64,000 nt of DNA from Anaerolineae bacterium. GTDB lineage: Bacteria; Chloroflexota; Anaerolineae; Aggregatilineales; Aggregatilineaceae. Location: assembly GCA_016930015.1 (NCBI GenBank), contig JAFGHR010000019.1:1-64000 (forward strand), read 5' to 3'. The translations under genes were made by a program, and so were the position numbers. Below the pieces are notes generated by a model. The model was given only the letters and a program-made list of their open reading frames with translations. It did no database searches and was not told the DNA's origin. Positions 38,552 to 51,151 of this stretch are shown piece after piece; the stretch's first letter is position 1, and every line of letters begins with the position of its first letter.

Positions 38552-40207
38552 ATGCGTAAATACCTTCGTTATTTTGGACCCGCGTTTCTTATTGTCGCAA
38601 CTTTGGCTGTCTCAGTGGTGGGCGTGTCTGGTGGCACCAAAGCCCAAGAGTTTGAGCCAATGGTCTATTCGGCGGAAAACTGTGACTACGGTGGTGAATT
38701 CCTGTCGATCGAAGCCCTTGATGAAACCACCGTGAAGTTCACGCTTTGCCGGCCCGATCCGGCGTTCCCATCCAAGGTCGCGTTTTCGGCTTTTGCCATT
38801 CACAGCTCGGACTACCTTGAAACCACCGGCGGCGGTGGTGATCTGGTTGAAAAACCGGTCGGCACCGGTCCGTACATGCTCGAAGAATGGACCCGTGGTG
38901 ACAGCCTCACCCTGAAGCGTTACGATGGTTACTGGGGCAGCCCGGCGCTGACCGACACCCTCGTGTTCCGCTGGAACTCCGAAGGTGCAGCCCGCCTGAC
39001 CGAACTACAGGCCGGCACGGTCGACGGTATCGACAACCCGACTCCCGATGACTTTGAAGCCATTCGCGAAGACGAAAACCTGGTGCTCTACGACCGCCCC
39101 GGCACAAACGTCTTCTACATCGGCCTCAACAACTGGTTCGAGCCGCTGGATAATGTCAACGTCCGCAAAGCGTTGGCTATGGGCATTGACCGCCAGCGTA
39201 TCGTCGACAACTTCTACCCGCCCGGATCGCTGGCTGCCACCCAGTTCATGCCGCCGGTCATCTTCGGTTATACACCCGAAGTTTCCTGGTATGACTTTGA
39301 CCCGGCTGCCGCCCGTGCACTACTCGAAGCTGAAGGGCTGGGCGAGGGCCTTGAAATCGACCTGTACTACCGCGACGTGTTCCGTTCATACCTGCCGGAA
39401 CCGGGCCGTGTAGCCGAAGACATCCAGGCCCAGCTTGCAGAGAACCTGGGTGTTACCGCCAATATCACCGTCATGGAATCCGGTGCGTTCATTGACGCCA
39501 GCGATGCCGGTGAGTTGTCGATGTACCTGTTGGGTTGGAACGCTGACTACCCCGACGCGACCAACTTCTTAGACTTCCACTTCGGCGCCGGTAGCTCTGA
39601 TCAGTTCGGTGACAAGTTCGATGCCATCACCGGCCCGCTGAGCGAAGCCTCACAGATTGCCGACCCGGCCACCCGCCTGGGTATCTATATCGAAGCCAAT
39701 ACCGCCATCAAAGACAACGTGCCCATGATCCCGGTGGCGCATGGTGCCTCGGCGACCGCCTTTAAGGCGGCGGTCGAGGGTGCGCACGCCAGCCCGCTCG
39801 GCAACGAGTACTTCGCTGTGATGCAGGTCGCCGGTCAGGATACCCTGGTCTGGATGCAGAACGCCGAACCGATCGGCCTGTACTGCGCCGACGAAACCGA
39901 CGGCGAATCACTGCGCGCTTGCGAGCAGATCAACGAATCGCTGCTGGCCTTCGAGGTTGGTGGAGCGGCAGTCGTGCCCTCACTGGCCGAGAGCTATGAG
40001 GCCAACGAAGACGGCAGCGAGTGGACCTTCAAGCTGCGCGAAGGCGTCACGTTCCACGACGGCTCCAGCCTGGACGCCAACGATGTTGTGATGTCCTACG
40101 TTGTCCAGTGGGACGCGTCACACCCGCTGCACGTTGGGCGTAACGGCAGCTTCACATACTTCCCCGGCCTGTTTGATGGGTTCCTCAACCCGCCCGCGGA
40201 AGAGTAA
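38552..40207 (+). CDS. Family 5 (peptide/Opp-type) solute-binding protein with circularly permuted order
   Basis: A signal peptide (about residues 1-32) ends near TKAQEF with no lipobox Cys. The mature chain starts where normal family members are already about 120-150 residues in ('EALDETTVKFTLCRPDPAFP', then 'KPVGTGPYMLEEWTRGDSLT', 'NVNVRKALAMGIDRQRIVDN') and runs to the normal C-terminus near residue 425 ('DNVPMIPVAHG'). Then comes the part that is normally N-terminal: 'TLVWMQNAEPIGLYCADETD', 'INESLLAF', 'PSLAESYEANEDGSEWTF', 'LREGVTFHDGSSLDANDVV' (about 430-545). It should still deliver a peptide or other solute to the permeases encoded downstream. A terminator-like hairpin follows, as often after binding-protein genes. 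Confidence 0.88.
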   Translation: MRKYLRYFGPAFLIVATLAVSVVGVSGGTKAQEFEPMVYSAENCDYGGEFLSIEALDETTVKFTLCRPDPAFPSKVAFSAFAIHSSDYLETTGGGGDLVEKPVGTGPYMLEEWTRGDSLTLKRYDGYWGSPALTDTLVFRWNSEGAARLTELQAGTVDGIDNPTPDDFEAIREDENLVLYDRPGTNVFYIGLNNWFEPLDNVNVRKALAMGIDRQRIVDNFYPPGSLAATQFMPPVIFGYTPEVSWYDFDPAAARALLEAEGLGEGLEIDLYYRDVFRSYLPEPGRVAEDIQAQLAENLGVTANITVMESGAFIDASDAGELSMYLLGWNADYPDATNFLDFHFGAGSSDQFGDKFDAITGPLSEASQIADPATRLGIYIEANTAIKDNVPMIPVAHGASATAFKAAVEGAHASPLGNEYFAVMQVAGQDTLVWMQNAEPIGLYCADETDGESLRACEQINESLLAFEVGGAAVVPSLAESYEANEDGSEWTFKLREGVTFHDGSSLDANDVVMSYVVQWDASHPLHVGRNGSFTYFPGLFDGFLNPPAEE

Positions 40208-40416: not shown

Positions 40417-41490
40417 ATGGCAGGCTTTGTTGCACGGCGTCTAACACTCGCTGTCCCGGTGCTGTTAGGTATCGTGTTCGTTACTTTCGCACTGGCGCGC
40501 CTGTTGCCCGGCGACCCGTGCCGCTCTACCCTGGGCGAAAAGGCCACCGACGAAGTATGCGATGCGTTCAACGAACGATATGGTCTTAATGATCCTATCC
40601 CAGAACAATTCCGCATTTACTTGCGCGATGCACTAAACGGTAATCTTGGCGACTCGATCAAATTTGGTCGGCCCGTCACTGAGCTGATGGTTGAACGCCT
40701 GCCAGTTACCGTCGAACTGAGCGTTTATGCGATGCTGTTTGCAGTTGTCATCGGCATCCCCCTGGGAATTATCTCCGCCTATTATCACAATTCATCTATT
40801 GATGTGGGCACAATGATCGGGGCCAATATCGGCGTTTCGATGCCTGTATTCTGGCTGGGATTGATGCTTTCCTACTTTTTCGGGGTGATGCTCAAGGATA
40901 CCCCGCTGTGGCTGCCGCCAAGTGGCAGGCTTACCGCCGGTACTACGATCCAGCCCTTTTATGAAGTCTGGGGGCTGGATGTTAACGGTGATGCGCTGAC
41001 ACTGCCGGGCTTTATTGCCAACATCAACACCCTGAATGCCGCGTTAGTCGGCGACTGGGCCGGGCTGCGTGACGCGCTGCGTCACATGATCCTTCCGGCC
41101 ATGGCTCTGGGCACGATTCCCCTGTCCATCATTGCCCGTATGACACGTTCCAGCCTGCTGGAAGTGTTGGGGCTGAACTACATCCGAACCGCACGAGCCA
41201 AAGGCGCACGTGAACTGGTTGTCGTGCTGCGACACGGACTCCGAAACGCACTTCTGCCGGTAGTGACCATCATTGGGTTACAGCTTGGCACACTGCTCAG
41301 CGGTGCCGTCCTGACAGAAACCATTTTCGGTCTTTCAGGCGTTGGCCGGATTCTATACGATTCAATCACCGGGCGGGACTATACTGTTGTGCAGGCGTTT
41401 ACGCTGATTATCGCGGTCATTTTTGTATTCATCAACCTCATCGTAGACTCGCTTTACGCCTACCTTGACCCACGCATTCGACTTGAGTAG
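40417..41490 (+). CDS. Opp/Dpp-type ABC permease (DppB/OppB-like)
   Basis: The 357-aa polytopic protein has six predicted membrane segments. The N-terminal 'FVARRLTLAVPVLLGIVFVT' helix and 'RLLPGDPC' loop are typical of OppB. The ATPase-coupling EAA loop is in 'ARMTRSSLLEVLGLNYIRTA' and 'RAKGARELVVVLRHGLRNAL'. A loop near residues 185-215 ('WGLDVNGDALTLPGFIANIN') is somewhat longer than in E. coli. It forms the translocation pore with the next gene's permease. It lies 5 nt before that gene. Confidence 0.92.
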   Translation: MAGFVARRLTLAVPVLLGIVFVTFALARLLPGDPCRSTLGEKATDEVCDAFNERYGLNDPIPEQFRIYLRDALNGNLGDSIKFGRPVTELMVERLPVTVELSVYAMLFAVVIGIPLGIISAYYHNSSIDVGTMIGANIGVSMPVFWLGLMLSYFFGVMLKDTPLWLPPSGRLTAGTTIQPFYEVWGLDVNGDALTLPGFIANINTLNAALVGDWAGLRDALRHMILPAMALGTIPLSIIARMTRSSLLEVLGLNYIRTARAKGARELVVVLRHGLRNALLPVVTIIGLQLGTLLSGAVLTETIFGLSGVGRILYDSITGRDYTVVQAFTLIIAVIFVFINLIVDSLYAYLDPRIRLE

Positions 41491-41495
41491 TAACG

Positions 41496-43427
41496 ATGCA
41501 ACATACTGACTCTGCTTCACCTGAACTGCAACTACCCGCCGCCGACACGACGATACACACACGCCCACCCAAGGGCCTGTGGCGCGAAACACTCGAACGG
41601 TTGATCCGCAAACCTTCAGCGGTTGTGGGCCTGATCATCCTGGGCACATTGGTATTGATCGCGATCTTCGCCCCGGTCATTGCCACACACGATCCCCTGG
41701 CCGTGCTGCTGGATGTTCCTGAAGAGGGCGCGGTTAAGCGTATGGACCCATGTATCCATCTATTGGGATGCCCGTCAGCAGGCGATGAACTGGTCCATAC
41801 ATCAACAGAAACGAACATTCAAGCTGCCCGGCTCAATTCAACCAACTCGCTGATGTCAGCCGCTGATGGCAAGACCATCACCGTTTGGAAAACGGATGAT
41901 GGCAGCGTGTTATTCTCACTTCAGCACGAATCGCCTGTCACGTCATTTGACTGGAGTCCGAACGACCAGACCATTTTGGCGGCAAGCGGCGAAGAATTGA
42001 TTGTGTGGGATATCAACAGGCGCATCATCAGCCGGACGCTGCCGCATGAGGGCGGCGTTGACCTGGTTGAGTGGAATGCAGACGGCACACGCTTCCTGAC
42101 CGCCAGTGGGCGCACCGTGCGTATCTACGACACGTTATCGTGGACTCCGGTAGGCACCATCGAACTTGAAAATGATCGCCTGGCTGCTGCGTGGAATAAC
42201 AACGGTACGGTTGTGATGACGGCCAGCGGCAACCGCGTGCAGTTGTGGAACGCCTTCGTCGGCACCGAAGTCGCCAGCCTGGACCATGACGCACCACTGA
42301 CCAGCGCTGTGTTTAACGGTTCCACTAACCGCATATTGACGACCAGCGGCAACACGCTGCACGTGTGGAACACAGCTTCCTACGTCGAAGAAATCGTCAT
42401 TGAGCACGATCGTGACCTGACGCACGGCGCGTGGAGTGAGAATTTATCACGCGGGGTTGAAAACGTGATGGCGATCAGCGGCAATACCGGGTTTGTCTGG
42501 AAGTCAAAAACCGGTGAACTGTTGATGACACTCGATCACGGCGATCCCATTCAGCGCATATCGAGCAGTCCGCTGGCCACGCGCTTAATCACCCAGAGTG
42601 ATACACATATCACGGTCTGGGATGCGAATAATGGCGACAGCATTTCATCGATCGAACTGGAGGCCCCCATTACTAACGTCGCGTGGCAAAACAACGGCGG
42701 CGGTCTTTTGGTCACCAGTGGCCGCGACCTGCGTATTATCAAAACATCCAACTACCAGTACATCATGGGTGTAGACGGGAATGTGCGCGACCAGTTCAGC
42801 CGCGTTATATACGGAACGCGCGTTTCGCTGATGGTCGGCCTCACAACCGTAAGTTTTGCCGTGATCATCGGCATCATCGCCGGTGCTGTCGCCGGTTTTC
42901 TTGGCGGCTGGGTAGACAACCTCATCATGCGTATCATGGATGTGGTGCTCGCGTTCCCGCCCCTGATCCTGGCGATTGCGGTGGTCACCGTTCTCGGTCC
43001 GGGACTGCAAAACGCGCTGTTAGCTATCTCGATTGTGTTTATCCCGGCCTATGCCCGTGTCGCCCGTGCGGGTGTGCTGTCGGTCAAAGAAGAAGACTTT
43101 GTCACAGCCGATCGTGCCCTGGGCGTTCACCCGGCACGTATTTTGTTCCGGCGCGTGCTGCCAAATGCGCTCGCACCGCTTATTGTGCAGGCTACACTGG
43201 GTATCGGCACAGCCATCCTTGACGCGGCGGCGCTGTCCTTTCTTGGGCTGGGTGCCCAACCGCCCATGCCAGAATGGGGTTCTATGTTGGGAGCAGAACG
43301 CAACCAGATTTTCACCGCGCCACATCTTGTGTTCTATCCCGGCATCGCCATCATGATTATCGTGCTGGCATTTAACCTGCTTGGCGATGGTTTGCGTGAC
43401 GCACTTGATCCGCGTTTGGATCGCTGA
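41496..43427 (+). CDS. DppC-type ABC permease with extracytoplasmic WD40-like propeller insert
   Basis: The first membrane segment is at about residues 43-63. A normal DppC would continue 'HLLGTD..GRD.LSR.IYG'. Here HLLG occurs at 88-91, then about 330 extra residues, then 'YIMGVDGNVRDQFSRVIYGT' at 422-441 and the usual five-helix core with EAA loop 'ADRALGVHPARILFRRVLPN' and 'LSFLGLGAQPPMPEWG'. The insert (about 92-420) has eight repeats of about 40 residues ending in W/I-type strands: ITVWKTDDG, LIVWDINRR, VRIYDTLSW, VQLWNAFVG, LHVWNTASY, GFVWKSKTG, ITVWDANNG and LRIIKTSNY. That is a WD40-like beta-propeller. The loop faces outward in DppC, next to the binding-protein dock. Length is 643 aa against about 300 for ordinary members. 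Confidence 0.93.
   Translation: MQHTDSASPELQLPAADTTIHTRPPKGLWRETLERLIRKPSAVVGLIILGTLVLIAIFAPVIATHDPLAVLLDVPEEGAVKRMDPCIHLLGCPSAGDELVHTSTETNIQAARLNSTNSLMSAADGKTITVWKTDDGSVLFSLQHESPVTSFDWSPNDQTILAASGEELIVWDINRRIISRTLPHEGGVDLVEWNADGTRFLTASGRTVRIYDTLSWTPVGTIELENDRLAAAWNNNGTVVMTASGNRVQLWNAFVGTEVASLDHDAPLTSAVFNGSTNRILTTSGNTLHVWNTASYVEEIVIEHDRDLTHGAWSENLSRGVENVMAISGNTGFVWKSKTGELLMTLDHGDPIQRISSSPLATRLITQSDTHITVWDANNGDSISSIELEAPITNVAWQNNGGGLLVTSGRDLRIIKTSNYQYIMGVDGNVRDQFSRVIYGTRVSLMVGLTTVSFAVIIGIIAGAVAGFLGGWVDNLIMRIMDVVLAFPPLILAIAVVTVLGPGLQNALLAISIVFIPAYARVARAGVLSVKEEDFVTADRALGVHPARILFRRVLPNALAPLIVQATLGIGTAILDAAALSFLGLGAQPPMPEWGSMLGAERNQIFTAPHLVFYPGIAIMIIVLAFNLLGDGLRDALDPRLDR
41769..42755 (+). other. 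WD40-like propeller insertion inside the permease gene
   Basis: This marks the inserted domain, about residues 92-420. The frame is continuous on both sides and codon use looks like the surrounding permease, so a recent artefact is unlikely. The segments HLLG before and YIMG after look like a split or duplicated copy of one motif. Confidence 0.85.
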
Positions 43428-43438
43428 TAGGTATAATC

Positions 43439-44473
43439 ATGGCAGCCTTAAAAGACACCAACCGACAAAACAAGCAGCCGGCAGACGACCAACCGCTGCT
43501 CGAAGTAACCGACCTGCGCACGTACTTTTTTACCCGCGAAGGAACGGTTAAGGCCGTTGACGGCGTAAGCTTAACGGTCAAACGGGGTGAAATCCGCGGT
43601 ATTGTGGGTGAATCGGGTTGTGGAAAAAGTATGACAGCCATGTCGATCCTGCGATTGGTCGATAAACCCGGCAAAATCGTATCCGGCGAAATTCTGTTCA
43701 AAGGCAAAAACCTGCTGGAAAATTCCACGCGCGAAATGACGGCGCTGCGTGGCAAACAGATTTCTATCATCTTTCAGGAACCCAAATCATCGCTCAACCC
43801 GGTTCTAAAAGTGGGTTCGCAGTTACTCGAAGTGCTGCGCATTCACCAGGGATCAAAGCGGAAAATAAATCGAGACGAAGCCGTTAGTTTGCTGCGAGAC
43901 GTCGGTATCCCAGACCCACAAATGCGCGTATCGAACTATCCGCACGAAATGTCGGGCGGTATGGCTCAGCGCGTGATGATTGCGATGGGCATGGCGTGTG
44001 AGCCGGACCTGCTGATCGCGGATGAGCCAACCACCGCGCTGGATGTCACTATCCAGGCCCAGGTGCTGGACTTGATCCGCAATCTCCGCGACGAATACGG
44101 TATGGCCGTGATGCTCATTACACACAACATGGGCATTGTTGCCGAAATGGCCGACATCGTCACCGTGATGTATGCCGGAACAGCCGTCGAGGAGGCCAGG
44201 ACTGACGACCTGTTTGAAGCCCCGCTGCATCCTTACACGCAGGGCCTGATCGCGTCTATCCCTGTTATGGGCAAGGTCAAAGACCGGTTGGAAGTCATAC
44301 CCGGCATGGTACCCAGTTTGATCGATATGCCGCCGGGCTGTCGTTTTGCGCCACGCTGCGTGGCGCGGGTAAAGCACCAACTCCAACAATGTGAAGTCGA
44401 AGAACCGCATATGATCGAGGCAAAACCGAATCACTATGTGCGCTGCTGGCTGTACGAAAGCGAGGAGTCATGA
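43439..44473 (+). CDS. Opp/Dpp-type ABC ATP-binding protein (DppD/OppD-like)
   Basis: The 344-aa ATPase has Walker A 'GESGCGKSM', Q-loop '[10 protein letters not shown]', signature '[13 protein letters not shown]', Walker B '[12 protein letters not shown]' and H-loop 'LITHNMG'. The C-terminal oligopeptide extension carries '[20 protein letters not shown]' and a further Cys, a set that holds an iron-sulfur cluster in some DppD proteins. It would power import together with the following gene, which it overlaps by 4 bp. Confidence 0.95.
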
Positions 44474-45468
44474 CTAACTCCGAAAACTTGCTGGAAATCC
44501 GCGATTTGAAAGTGTACTTCGAAGTCAAAGGCGGCATCCTCAAGCGTACAGTGGGGCACGTGAAAGCGGTTGATGGCGTAAACCTGTCAATTAAACGGGG
44601 GGAAATTCTGGGCCTGGTCGGCGAATCCGGCTGTGGCAAAACCACGGTTGGCCGCGCGCTGCTGCGCCTGATTCCTGCCACAGAAGGCACGGTCTACTTT
44701 AACAACCAGAATATCTTTAAGCTCAAACCGTCCGAACTAAAGCCGCTGCGCAGCCAAATGCAGCTTGTGTTCCAGGACCCCTATTCGTCACTCGACCCAC
44801 GCTCACGCGTAGGGGACATCGTGGGTGAAGGGCTGCGCGTACACGGCGTAAGTAACCGGGGTGAACGTCACCAGCGTGTTCTGGAAGCGCTGCGAATGGT
44901 TGGCCTTCAGGAACATCATATGCGCCGTTTCCCACACGAGTTTTCGGGAGGACAGCGGCAGCGTATCGGTATTGCGCGGGCCCTGGTGCTTAACCCCAGC
45001 TTCATTGTGTGTGACGAACCGGTGTCGGCACTGGACGTATCGATCCAATCACAGGTGCTCAATTTGCTCAAAGACTTGCAGCAGACGCTCGACCTGACGC
45101 TGCTGTTTATTGCGCATGACATGAGCGTGGTGGAGCATTTGTGCAACCGGGTCGCCGTGATGTACCTGGGTAAGATCGTCGAAGTGGCCGACCGCGAAGA
45201 GTTGTTCAGAAATCCACAACATCCCTACACCCAGGCGCTCATGTCAGCTATCCCCATAGCTGATCCCAAAATCAAGCGCCAACGAATTATTCTCCAGGGT
45301 GACCCACCCAGCCCCTTGAATCCCCCGCCGGGCTGCCGGTTCCATACACGCTGCCAGGAAGTCATCGACATTTGCTCCCAGGTGATACCGGAGCAAATCG
45401 ACCTGGGCAACCAGCATTTTTGCGCCTGTCACCGGCGCCAACCCGTGCAAGAAGCGGCTACCAGCTGA
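44470..45468 (+). CDS. Opp/Dpp-type ABC ATP-binding protein (DppF/OppF-like)
   Basis: The 332-aa ATPase has Walker A 'GESGCGKTT', Q-loop '[12 protein letters not shown]', signature '[15 protein letters not shown]', Walker B '[12 protein letters not shown]' and H-loop 'FIAHDMS'. The C-terminal extension has '[20 protein letters not shown]' and a closing CAC motif. Its substrate-side partner is the DppD-like protein encoded just upstream. A short hairpin terminator follows, ending the importer operon. Confidence 0.95.
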
Positions 45469-48599: not shown

Positions 48600-49670
48600 A
48601 TGACTACTGAAATAGATACGACAAGTGATATACAAGCGGACCTACGGACAGAAATTGCTGAGCCCAGATTGACACCGAGGCGTGCTCAAATTCTATGGGG
48701 CTACCTGTTCCTGGCACCATGGATCGTGGGTTTTCTTGTGTTCATTGCAGGCCCAATGCTTGCCTCGTTATACCTATCCATGACGAACTATAGTATTGGC
48801 TCAGATAGGCCTACAGAGTTTATTGGCCTGGATAACTACAAACGTATGTTTGCCCTGGATATCCAGAAGGGCGATGAGGGCGAAGAAATCGTCTTTAAAC
48901 CGGGCTACCAGGAGTGGACAAGTGTCGGGGATTACCACATTGGGGCAGAGGACCACCGCTTCTGGCAGTCGGTTGAGGTTACACTAAAATATGCCGTCGT
49001 AGCACTGCCTCTATCGCTCGCGCTGGCCTTGTTCCTTGCGATTCTCACGAATATTAGAGTCCCAGGTGTTACAGTTTTTCGAACGCTGTTCTATTTACCA
49101 ACCGTCATTCCTGCTGTTGTGTCCGCATCGGTATTTTTGCAGTTTTTACGCCAGCAGGACGGTTGGCTAAACAATTATGCACTCGAACCATTTGGGATTA
49201 CGGGTCCAGACTGGCTGCAGAACCCAGAGTTTGCCATTCCCACCCTGACACTCATCGCAACTTGGGGAATCGGCACGACCATGTTGATGTTCCTGGCCGG
49301 GCTGCAGAACGTGCCCACCGAACTTTATGAGGCCGCCCGCGTGGATGGGGCGAATTTCTTTTCGCGCTTCTGGCATATTACGGTCCCCATGATTTCCCCG
49401 GTCATTCTGTATAATCTCGTTATTGGTCTGATTGGCACATTCCAATATTTCACCATCGCCTATGCCCTCACGGCTGACGTCCAGATGGGTGGACGCGATT
49501 TGTCAATGTACTTCTATAACATGCACGTCTACCGCGAAGCCTATGTGTTCTTTGAAATGGGGTATGCCTCGGCGCTGGCCTGGATTCTGCTGATCATCAT
49601 ATTAATTGTGACCGTAGCAGTCTTTCGTACTTCCACCCGTTGGGTGTATTACGCGGCGGGAGGCAGATAA
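48600..49670 (+). CDS. CUT1-type sugar ABC permease (MalF-like)
   Basis: The 356-aa protein has six membrane segments, starting with 'WGYLFLAPWIVGFLVFIAGP'. The EAA loop is 'LYEAARVDGANFFSRFWHIT'. An outer loop of about 35 residues near positions 83-118 ('IQKGDEGEEIVFKPGYQEW') is longer than in typical bacterial homologues. It pairs with the permease whose start is 2 nt downstream of its stop. No ATPase gene lies in this operon, so a shared MsmK-like ATPase elsewhere must energise it. Confidence 0.93.
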   Translation: MTTEIDTTSDIQADLRTEIAEPRLTPRRAQILWGYLFLAPWIVGFLVFIAGPMLASLYLSMTNYSIGSDRPTEFIGLDNYKRMFALDIQKGDEGEEIVFKPGYQEWTSVGDYHIGAEDHRFWQSVEVTLKYAVVALPLSLALALFLAILTNIRVPGVTVFRTLFYLPTVIPAVVSASVFLQFLRQQDGWLNNYALEPFGITGPDWLQNPEFAIPTLTLIATWGIGTTMLMFLAGLQNVPTELYEAARVDGANFFSRFWHITVPMISPVILYNLVIGLIGTFQYFTIAYALTADVQMGGRDLSMYFYNMHVYREAYVFFEMGYASALAWILLIIILIVTVAVFRTSTRWVYYAAGGR

Positions 49671-49672
49671 TC

Positions 49673-51151
49673 ATGAACCGATTAATGAGTTTATTCACTA
49701 ACAACCCCGCCGGACGACGCGGCTATCTGAAATACGATGCCTACAAATACATTGGCACCGGTATGCTGTTTATGTTTCTGGTCCTCCTGGCTACGGTTTA
49801 CCTGAGCCCACTGTTGTATATGGGCAGCACCGCGTTAAAGAGTGAAGTGCAGTTGTCCGATCCGGATGATCCCATCATCCCGCAGGGAGCCAAAACCTAT
49901 CATTATGTCAGCCCTGATCACGAAAGCTTCAAATACACCTACCGCCGGCCTGTCACCCTGGAGTACAACGGTGAAGAAATGCCGGTCTACGAAGTGATCG
50001 CGCAAGGGCAGATTCTCAATTATGCGCTGGTTGATGCCGAGACGGCCCTGTTTATTGACACGGGAAACATTGAGGCTGGCCCGGTTGAACTCGATATCGA
50101 CATCAGCAGCCTGAAACGTGCCATCGAGCGCGAACGGCTCGAAGTGCCGCTTTACGATGTTGATGTCAATGGTGAAACTAAGCGATTGGGCCTGATCGAA
50201 AAATACGAAGACGGCTCCACGCTGTGGATGGACCCCGAAAACATCAATGTTGAACCGGTTCGTCTGCCGATCGAAGCCAATCCCGATAACCTGGTACGCA
50301 CTGAAAGTGACCTGCGGCTGTACCATGTTCCAATAGATGGCGAAACGAAAGTGCTGGCGCTGCTGGAATCCAAGCGTAACAGTGCCACATTTGTCGATCC
50401 AGACAACCCCGAAGAACTCATCAAACTGGATGATATCCGGGTGCGTGGCCTGGACTCGGTCTGGGAACTGGAATTCCATCCCGAAAACTTCAAGGATGCG
50501 ATTGACCAGATCGAGTACTTCCGCCTGTTCCGCAACACGCTCATCATGTCGGTTATCGGCGGTTTTGGTGCCATGATATCGGCTACGCTGGTAGCGTATG
50601 GGTTCACCCGGTTCAATATTCCCTACGGTAACATTCTGTTCCTCATCCTGCTGGCGACGATCATGCTGCCGCCACAGGTTACCCAGATCCCGACATATAT
50701 TGTCTTCCGGGAAATCGGGTGGATTGGTACGCTCTTACCCCTCATCGTGCCGCATTTCTTCGCGAACGCGTATAACGTGTTCCTGCTGCGCCAGTACATG
50801 ATGGGTATTCCGCTGGAACTGGATGACGCGGCCCGCGTTGATGGCGCCAACCCGCTGCAAATTCTCTGGCATGTCATCATTCCTGAAGCACGCCCAGCCA
50901 TGGTAGCGGCCTATCTGTTCCATTTCCTGTTTGCATGGAACGACTTCCAACAACCGCTGATCTACATCGGCGGCAACGAGGATAACCAGGTGCTGGCCGT
51001 TGGTTTGCAGCGTTTCACCCAGATCTATTCATCGCAGCAGCACCTGATGATGGCAGCCGGTATCCTGACCATGCTGGTACCGCTGGCCGTATTCTTCCTG
51101 GCCCAGCGCATCTTCATGCAAGGTGTTGTGATCACTGGGGTTGAAAAATGA
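49673..51151 (+). CDS. CUT1-type sugar ABC permease (MalG-like) with large extracytoplasmic insert
   Basis: The ATG at 49673 follows GGAGG; the 492-aa product is about 200 residues longer than usual MalG. After the first membrane segment (about 28-52), residues about 72-262 form an insert with two clear and one weak tandem repeat of about 55 residues: 'LYDVDVNGETKRLGLIEK', 'LYHVPIDGETKVLALLES' and an earlier 'MPVYEVIAQGQILNYALV', each followed by a W/F-x-D-P stretch. The remaining five helices and EAA loop 'LDDAARVDGANPLQILWHVI' are normal. The insert faces outside, where the binding protein docks. The stop overlaps the GH8 gene by 4 bp. Confidence 0.92.
   Translation: MNRLMSLFTNNPAGRRGYLKYDAYKYIGTGMLFMFLVLLATVYLSPLLYMGSTALKSEVQLSDPDDPIIPQGAKTYHYVSPDHESFKYTYRRPVTLEYNGEEMPVYEVIAQGQILNYALVDAETALFIDTGNIEAGPVELDIDISSLKRAIERERLEVPLYDVDVNGETKRLGLIEKYEDGSTLWMDPENINVEPVRLPIEANPDNLVRTESDLRLYHVPIDGETKVLALLESKRNSATFVDPDNPEELIKLDDIRVRGLDSVWELEFHPENFKDAIDQIEYFRLFRNTLIMSVIGGFGAMISATLVAYGFTRFNIPYGNILFLILLATIMLPPQVTQIPTYIVFREIGWIGTLLPLIVPHFFANAYNVFLLRQYMMGIPLELDDAARVDGANPLQILWHVIIPEARPAMVAAYLFHFLFAWNDFQQPLIYIGGNEDNQVLAVGLQRFTQIYSSQQHLMMAAGILTMLVPLAVFFLAQRIFMQGVVITGVEK

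Follow-up and report, generated by a model that had tools for sequence, protein, structure and literature searches.

The DppC-type permease gene in the window (the whole stretch of 64,000 nucleotides of Anaerolineae DNA analysed here) raises the question of whether a peptide importer can carry a folded β-propeller on its outer face and, if so, what such a propeller would do. The original prediction described an ordinary DppC core split by about 330 residues with eight WD40-like repeats. The corresponding frame is organised as follows:

41496..43427, + strand: WD40-DppC permease, 643 aa, one open frame
41577..41696, + strand: OppC_N domain with TM1, residues 28–67 (Pfam, AlphaFold2 model)
41739..41786, + strand: outer hairpin R..PCIHLLGCPxAGD, residues 82–97, N-side base of the propeller (conserved, two invariant Cys)
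41787..42746, + strand: eight-bladed WD40 propeller, residues 98–417, velcro strand 98–103 (model, fold matches, periodicity)
42750..42791, + strand: re-entry segment NYQYIMGVDGNVRD, residues 419–432, equivalent to QHIMGxDGNxRD in uninserted orthologs
42792..43424, + strand: permease core, TM2 to TM6 and EAA loop, residues 433–643 (Pfam, model)

The ordinary core was readily recognised. Both domains by which DppC/OppC permeases are identified (PF00528 and PF12911) exceeded their Pfam cut-offs, with OppC_N at residues 28–67 (45.7 bits, cut-off 23.9) and BPD_transp_1 at residues 459–642 (118.9 bits, cut-off 26.4), and the WD40 repeats scored 73.2 bits (cut-off 27). None of the curated equivalogs was reached; the protein scored 269.9 bits for the E. 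coli-type DppC equivalog NF008160, below the curated cut-off of 483. It is accompanied in the operon by genes for a family 5 binding protein, a B permease and two ATPases with oligo_HPY domains.

The insert has a periodicity of exactly 40 residues, with a mean BLOSUM62 score at lag 40 of +0.53, and the best lag never exceeded -0.32 in 1000 shuffles. The AlphaFold2 model, which rests on a single other inserted homolog, had a mean pLDDT of 79.9 and a pTM of 0.66, with values of about 90 for the propeller (blocks mostly 87–95). It arranges 32 strands into eight four-stranded blades, and strand 98–103 completes blade 8 (392–416), such that the predicted structure is a closed ring with velcro closure. 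Structure prediction, named beforehand as a way to refute the propeller, therefore returned one with the expected number of blades; the insert is somewhat smaller than first estimated, at about 320 residues (98–417). The position of the propeller relative to the membrane part is unreliable in this model, and the hairpin underneath has a pLDDT of 53–75. The fold matches obtained with Foldseek and VIA-align were eight-bladed WD40 propellers, with TM scores of 0.82 (by target length) for the designed protein Tako8 and 0.80 for TBL1XR1. Z scores were 37.7 for ODA16 (322 residues aligned, rmsd 2.4 Å), 34.0 for TBL1XR1, 33.0 for Rsa4 and 32.5 for Tako8, over about 300–322 aligned residues. Tako8 is a design and the other three are proteins of the cytoplasm or nucleus; the DppC insert has the same eight-bladed fold but, unlike them, is placed in the outward loop of a membrane transporter. 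No donor was identified among the WD40 proteins of the same genome, the best matches being 23–32% identical over parts of the sequence.

Comparison with uninserted Chloroflexota orthologs (L033-L065, L121-L140), the cores of which are 66–79% identical and which have the same Cys hairpin and the same operon partners, including a permuted DppA, located the insertion point precisely. These proteins read PCIHLLGCP-xDQP-QHIMGxDGNxRDxFSR at this site, where HLLGCP and QHIMG are only some five residues apart. The propeller lies between the hairpin PCIHLLGCP and the QYIMG segment, taking the place of the middle four or five residues, and the rest of the permease has lost none. The Cys pair of the hairpin is invariant among the inserted proteins and nearly so among their relatives. 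The two half-copies of a motif previously noted on either side of the insert are real, but they are not derived from the insertion: both HLLG and HIMG are already present in the uninserted orthologs and are, thus, ancestral. The propeller is joined to the loop by short linkers, of about five residues at its N-terminal end and four at its C-terminal end, so it is probably mounted rigidly. DppC typically has six TM helices, with a periplasmic TM1–TM2 region and the EAA loop inside (PMC12136057); by analogy with this topology, the loop carrying the propeller would face outside, in agreement with the original prediction. The accompanying suggestion that this loop touches the binding protein in known DppC proteins was not upheld, because the contact established in E. 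coli is the DppB scoop (PMC12136057). Taking these data together, we consider it nearly certain (probability of about 0.97) that a WD40 propeller is built into the outward TM1–TM2 loop of a DppC/OppC-type permease.

Full-length WD40-DppC was found in nine of the 18 genomes and eight of the 12 genera of the window's family, and in one genome (G031) of a second family of the same order, always between DppB and DppD. Every ortholog found within the window's family has the propeller. A further 70 genomes of the order have an ortholog not matching the propeller part, and no propeller-bearing ortholog was detected in samples of 395 other genomes from across the class and 399 from across the phylum; of 396 genomes of the class, including that of the window, 156 possess the permease ortholog itself. 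In a quick tree built from the permease after removal of the insert, the ten inserted proteins formed one group, consistent with a single change (SH-aLRT 80). The gain of the propeller was therefore apparently a single event, in an ancestor shared by one Chloroflexota family and a sister lineage, and the earlier suggestion of a new importer subtype holds in the sense of a variant defining a single clade. In one member (L032/L119; 770 aa), the propeller contains an acidic spacer as well as further long loops. An assembly chimera or a frame error can be set aside almost completely as a source of the insert, since the same junctions, in the same operon, recur in ten independent genomes from nine genera, G+C content is alike across the N-terminal part, the insert and the core, and the propeller is under purifying selection, as described below.

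Some uninserted orthologs (L136, L141, L225 and L226) carry additional hydrophobic segments on an extended N terminus. A Chloroflexota-type DppC with the Cys hairpin, accompanied by a permuted DppA, was also found on a 204 kb contig of the alphaproteobacterium Allorhizobium sonneratiae (L052), possibly through horizontal transfer.

The remainder of the importer is encoded by four genes flanking WD40-DppC:

38552..40207, + strand: DppA-type family 5 binding protein, circularly permuted, Sec signal, no lipobox
40417..41490, + strand: DppB permease, scoop-loop charges E41 and K42
43439..44473, + strand: DppD ATPase with oligo_HPY domain (Pfam)
44470..45468, + strand: DppF ATPase with oligo_HPY domain (Pfam)

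This gene set is that of E. coli DppABCDF (PDB 8z1v-8z1z; PMC12136057), with strong matches for the DppC core (4e-68 against 8z1v_B), DppB (2.5e-78) and DppA (2.8e-75 against 1dpp). The window's importer differs from it in the DppC propeller of about 320 aa, the Cys hairpin preceding the insertion point and the permutation of DppA. Residues 53–423 of the binding protein match residues 127–503 of E. coli DppA, and residues 431–540 match residues 2–118 (1dpp numbering), indicating that the first 110 or so residues of the DppA fold have been moved to the C terminus with the ligand residues retained. The predicted structure of the permuted protein (pLDDT 86, pTM 0.85) matches dipeptide-binding proteins. 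In E. coli, R383 and D436 of DppA hold the ends of the dipeptide (PMC12136057). Their equivalents here, R278 and D332, are invariant in 20 relatives, and the DppB scoop has E41 and K42, as against E41 and R42 in E. coli, a conservative change. Because the ligand residues and scoop charges of a Dpp-type importer are all retained, the core machine looks like a canonical Dpp system, to which the propeller is an addition rather than a replacement for the usual interface.

The permuted DppA (window 38552-40207; L032-L065) is encoded beside every uninserted relative of this DppC clade with its gene in range, so the permutation is an older trait of the clade, predating the propeller. The survey thereby disposed of the proposed coupling between propeller and permutation. 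The binding proteins of the propeller clade (window 38552-38660; L112, L114, L116-L119, L143) carry a Sec signal that ends in AQ but lack a lipobox, a motif present in most binding proteins from uninserted relatives outside the order. Anchor loss does not require a propeller, as the binding proteins of L141, L146 and L147, uninserted members of the same order, also lack a lipobox. A lineage-wide loss of lipoprotein anchoring was rejected as the cause: Lgt was found in 154 of 154 genomes, and the lineage is thus able to make lipoproteins. In two genomes of genus g12 (L113 and L115), the operon begins at dppB, with no adjoining binding-protein gene.

Between two closely related genomes, the propeller gave a dN of 0.027 and a dS of 0.41 (dN/dS of about 0.07). 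Over all pairs, median identity was 53% for the propeller and 89% for the permease core. The propeller is therefore under purifying selection, yet fast-evolving. The positions constant in all ten propellers are mostly Trp and Gly residues of the blade core. Comparison of strand and loop classes among the ten members revealed no clear conserved binding face: conservation was 0.46 (D-A) and 0.41 (B-C) for the top-face loops, and 0.63 (A-B) and 0.49 (C-D) for the bottom loops. The rapid divergence relative to the core and the existence of the spacer-rich 770 aa variant might be expected of a neutral passenger, an insertion tolerated without function. Such an explanation is nevertheless improbable given the purifying selection: the frame is open in all ten genomes, the blade-core Trp and Gly positions are retained, and the family has no ortholog lacking the propeller.

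Other domains occupy the same loop elsewhere. In another family of the order, a DppC ortholog (L142 3000-4451, G036) has a fasciclin domain (FAS1; 58.3 bits, cut-off 22) at the same point as the propeller, between LGC and HIMG; this form is on a tree branch separate from the propeller clade and was found in one genome only. A DppC paralog (L150 492-1913) gave a PPC match in the TM1–TM2 loop at 19.6 bits, below the cut-off, and its loop domain is probably PPC. A different DppC paralog in the window's family (L149 2554-4005, G007), truncated at the N terminus by the contig end, has a second WD40 array ahead of YLLGTDGAGRD, and a more regular one; no insert is present in the orthologs of this paralog from other genomes. 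With WD40 propellers occurring at least twice, together with FAS1 and PPC, the TM1–TM2 loop of DppC in this order might be a recurrent slot for foreign outer domains, giving modular importers with interchangeable heads. We regard this idea as a lead, and rather an unlikely one, since FAS1, PPC and the second WD40 array each rest on one genome.

Two further DppC paralogs (L152 and L158) have about 110 residues in the TM1–TM2 loop that gave no Pfam match and read like a fragment of a solute-binding protein. The window also encodes a MalG/UgpE-type sugar permease of 503 aa (49640-51151) in which some 200 residues, giving no convincing Pfam match, separate TM1 from the core; it is thus a further permease of the window with a large outer insert. 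Long frames of DppC paralogs in the family were considered as additional insertions and rejected: the longest were upstream overcalls of the frame, and the remainder contain a conserved loop, roughly 100 residues long, with no Pfam match.

As to function, we tentatively favour, at somewhat less than even odds, a platform on the outside of the translocator for docking or retention, similar in role to MalF P2. The propeller would hold the binding protein, which here lacks a lipid anchor, or a partner bearing cargo, near the pore, with substrate capture by R278 and D332 of DppA and release via the DppB scoop presumably continuing in the usual way. The short linkers and invariant hairpin Cys residues, the missing lipobox in the propeller clade and the occupation of the same loop by other domains in other importers are consistent with this reading. 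In the maltose importer, likewise of type I, the permease MalF has a large folded domain in an outer loop (P2, MalF 91-271) that makes direct contact with the binding protein (PMC3150292). The fold of P2 differs, and such contact, shown for P2, is conjectural for the propeller. MalF P2 also lies in another loop of another permease family, and no homology to it was found for the insert, which is a WD40 propeller, so the comparison concerns role only. The binding proteins are about 71–84% identical to that of the window, and a propeller evolving rapidly beside so well conserved a partner, with no strongly conserved face, counts against a fixed docking face.

Two explanations come next after docking, neither of them likely. 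The propeller might itself act as a receptor that uses its central channel or top face to bind extracellular peptides or protein fragments, thereby enriching them at the importer. Rapid surface evolution would suit a changing ligand, and the close structural matches include the peptide-binding WD40 domains of TBL1XR1, Fbw7, Cdc4 and Rsa4, but likeness of fold proves no function, the top-face loops are less conserved than those of the bottom and no conserved pocket was found among the ten members. With a similarly low probability, the propeller might serve adhesion or positioning by tying the importer to the cell surface, whether through the wall, the S-layer, the extracellular matrix or a partner protein. 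FAS1 and PPC domains are typical of surface and secreted proteins, and their presence (probable for PPC) in the same loop of another genome of the order and of a paralog, respectively, points in this direction, although these cases and the second WD40 array were each seen in a single genome. The probable rigid mounting beside TM1 on short linkers would also suit a ligand sensor or regulator altering transport through TM1–TM2; this reading is distinctly improbable, and no conserved ligand site was found. The substrate-capturing lid offered in the original prediction gained no separate support from these data. Docking or retention thus remains the preferred reading.

Importers of this type and the WD40 fold are both known; it is their joining that is apparently new. 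No publication linking WD40 and an ABC permease was found in the open-licence part of PubMed Central, in line with the original statement that no importer with a β-propeller at this site was known to have been described. The general view is that type I ABC importers meet their substrates through nothing but the binding protein and a handful of short loops. With a conserved propeller on the permease itself, there would be a second outer module, like MalF P2 but built from a fold used for protein-protein interaction. If the loop is indeed a recurrent slot, peptide importers of this order would acquire a docking module or surface receptor as an integral part. The circularly permuted DppA found throughout the clade is of interest in itself, and the uninserted sister importers that share it provide a natural experiment on what an outer permease domain adds.
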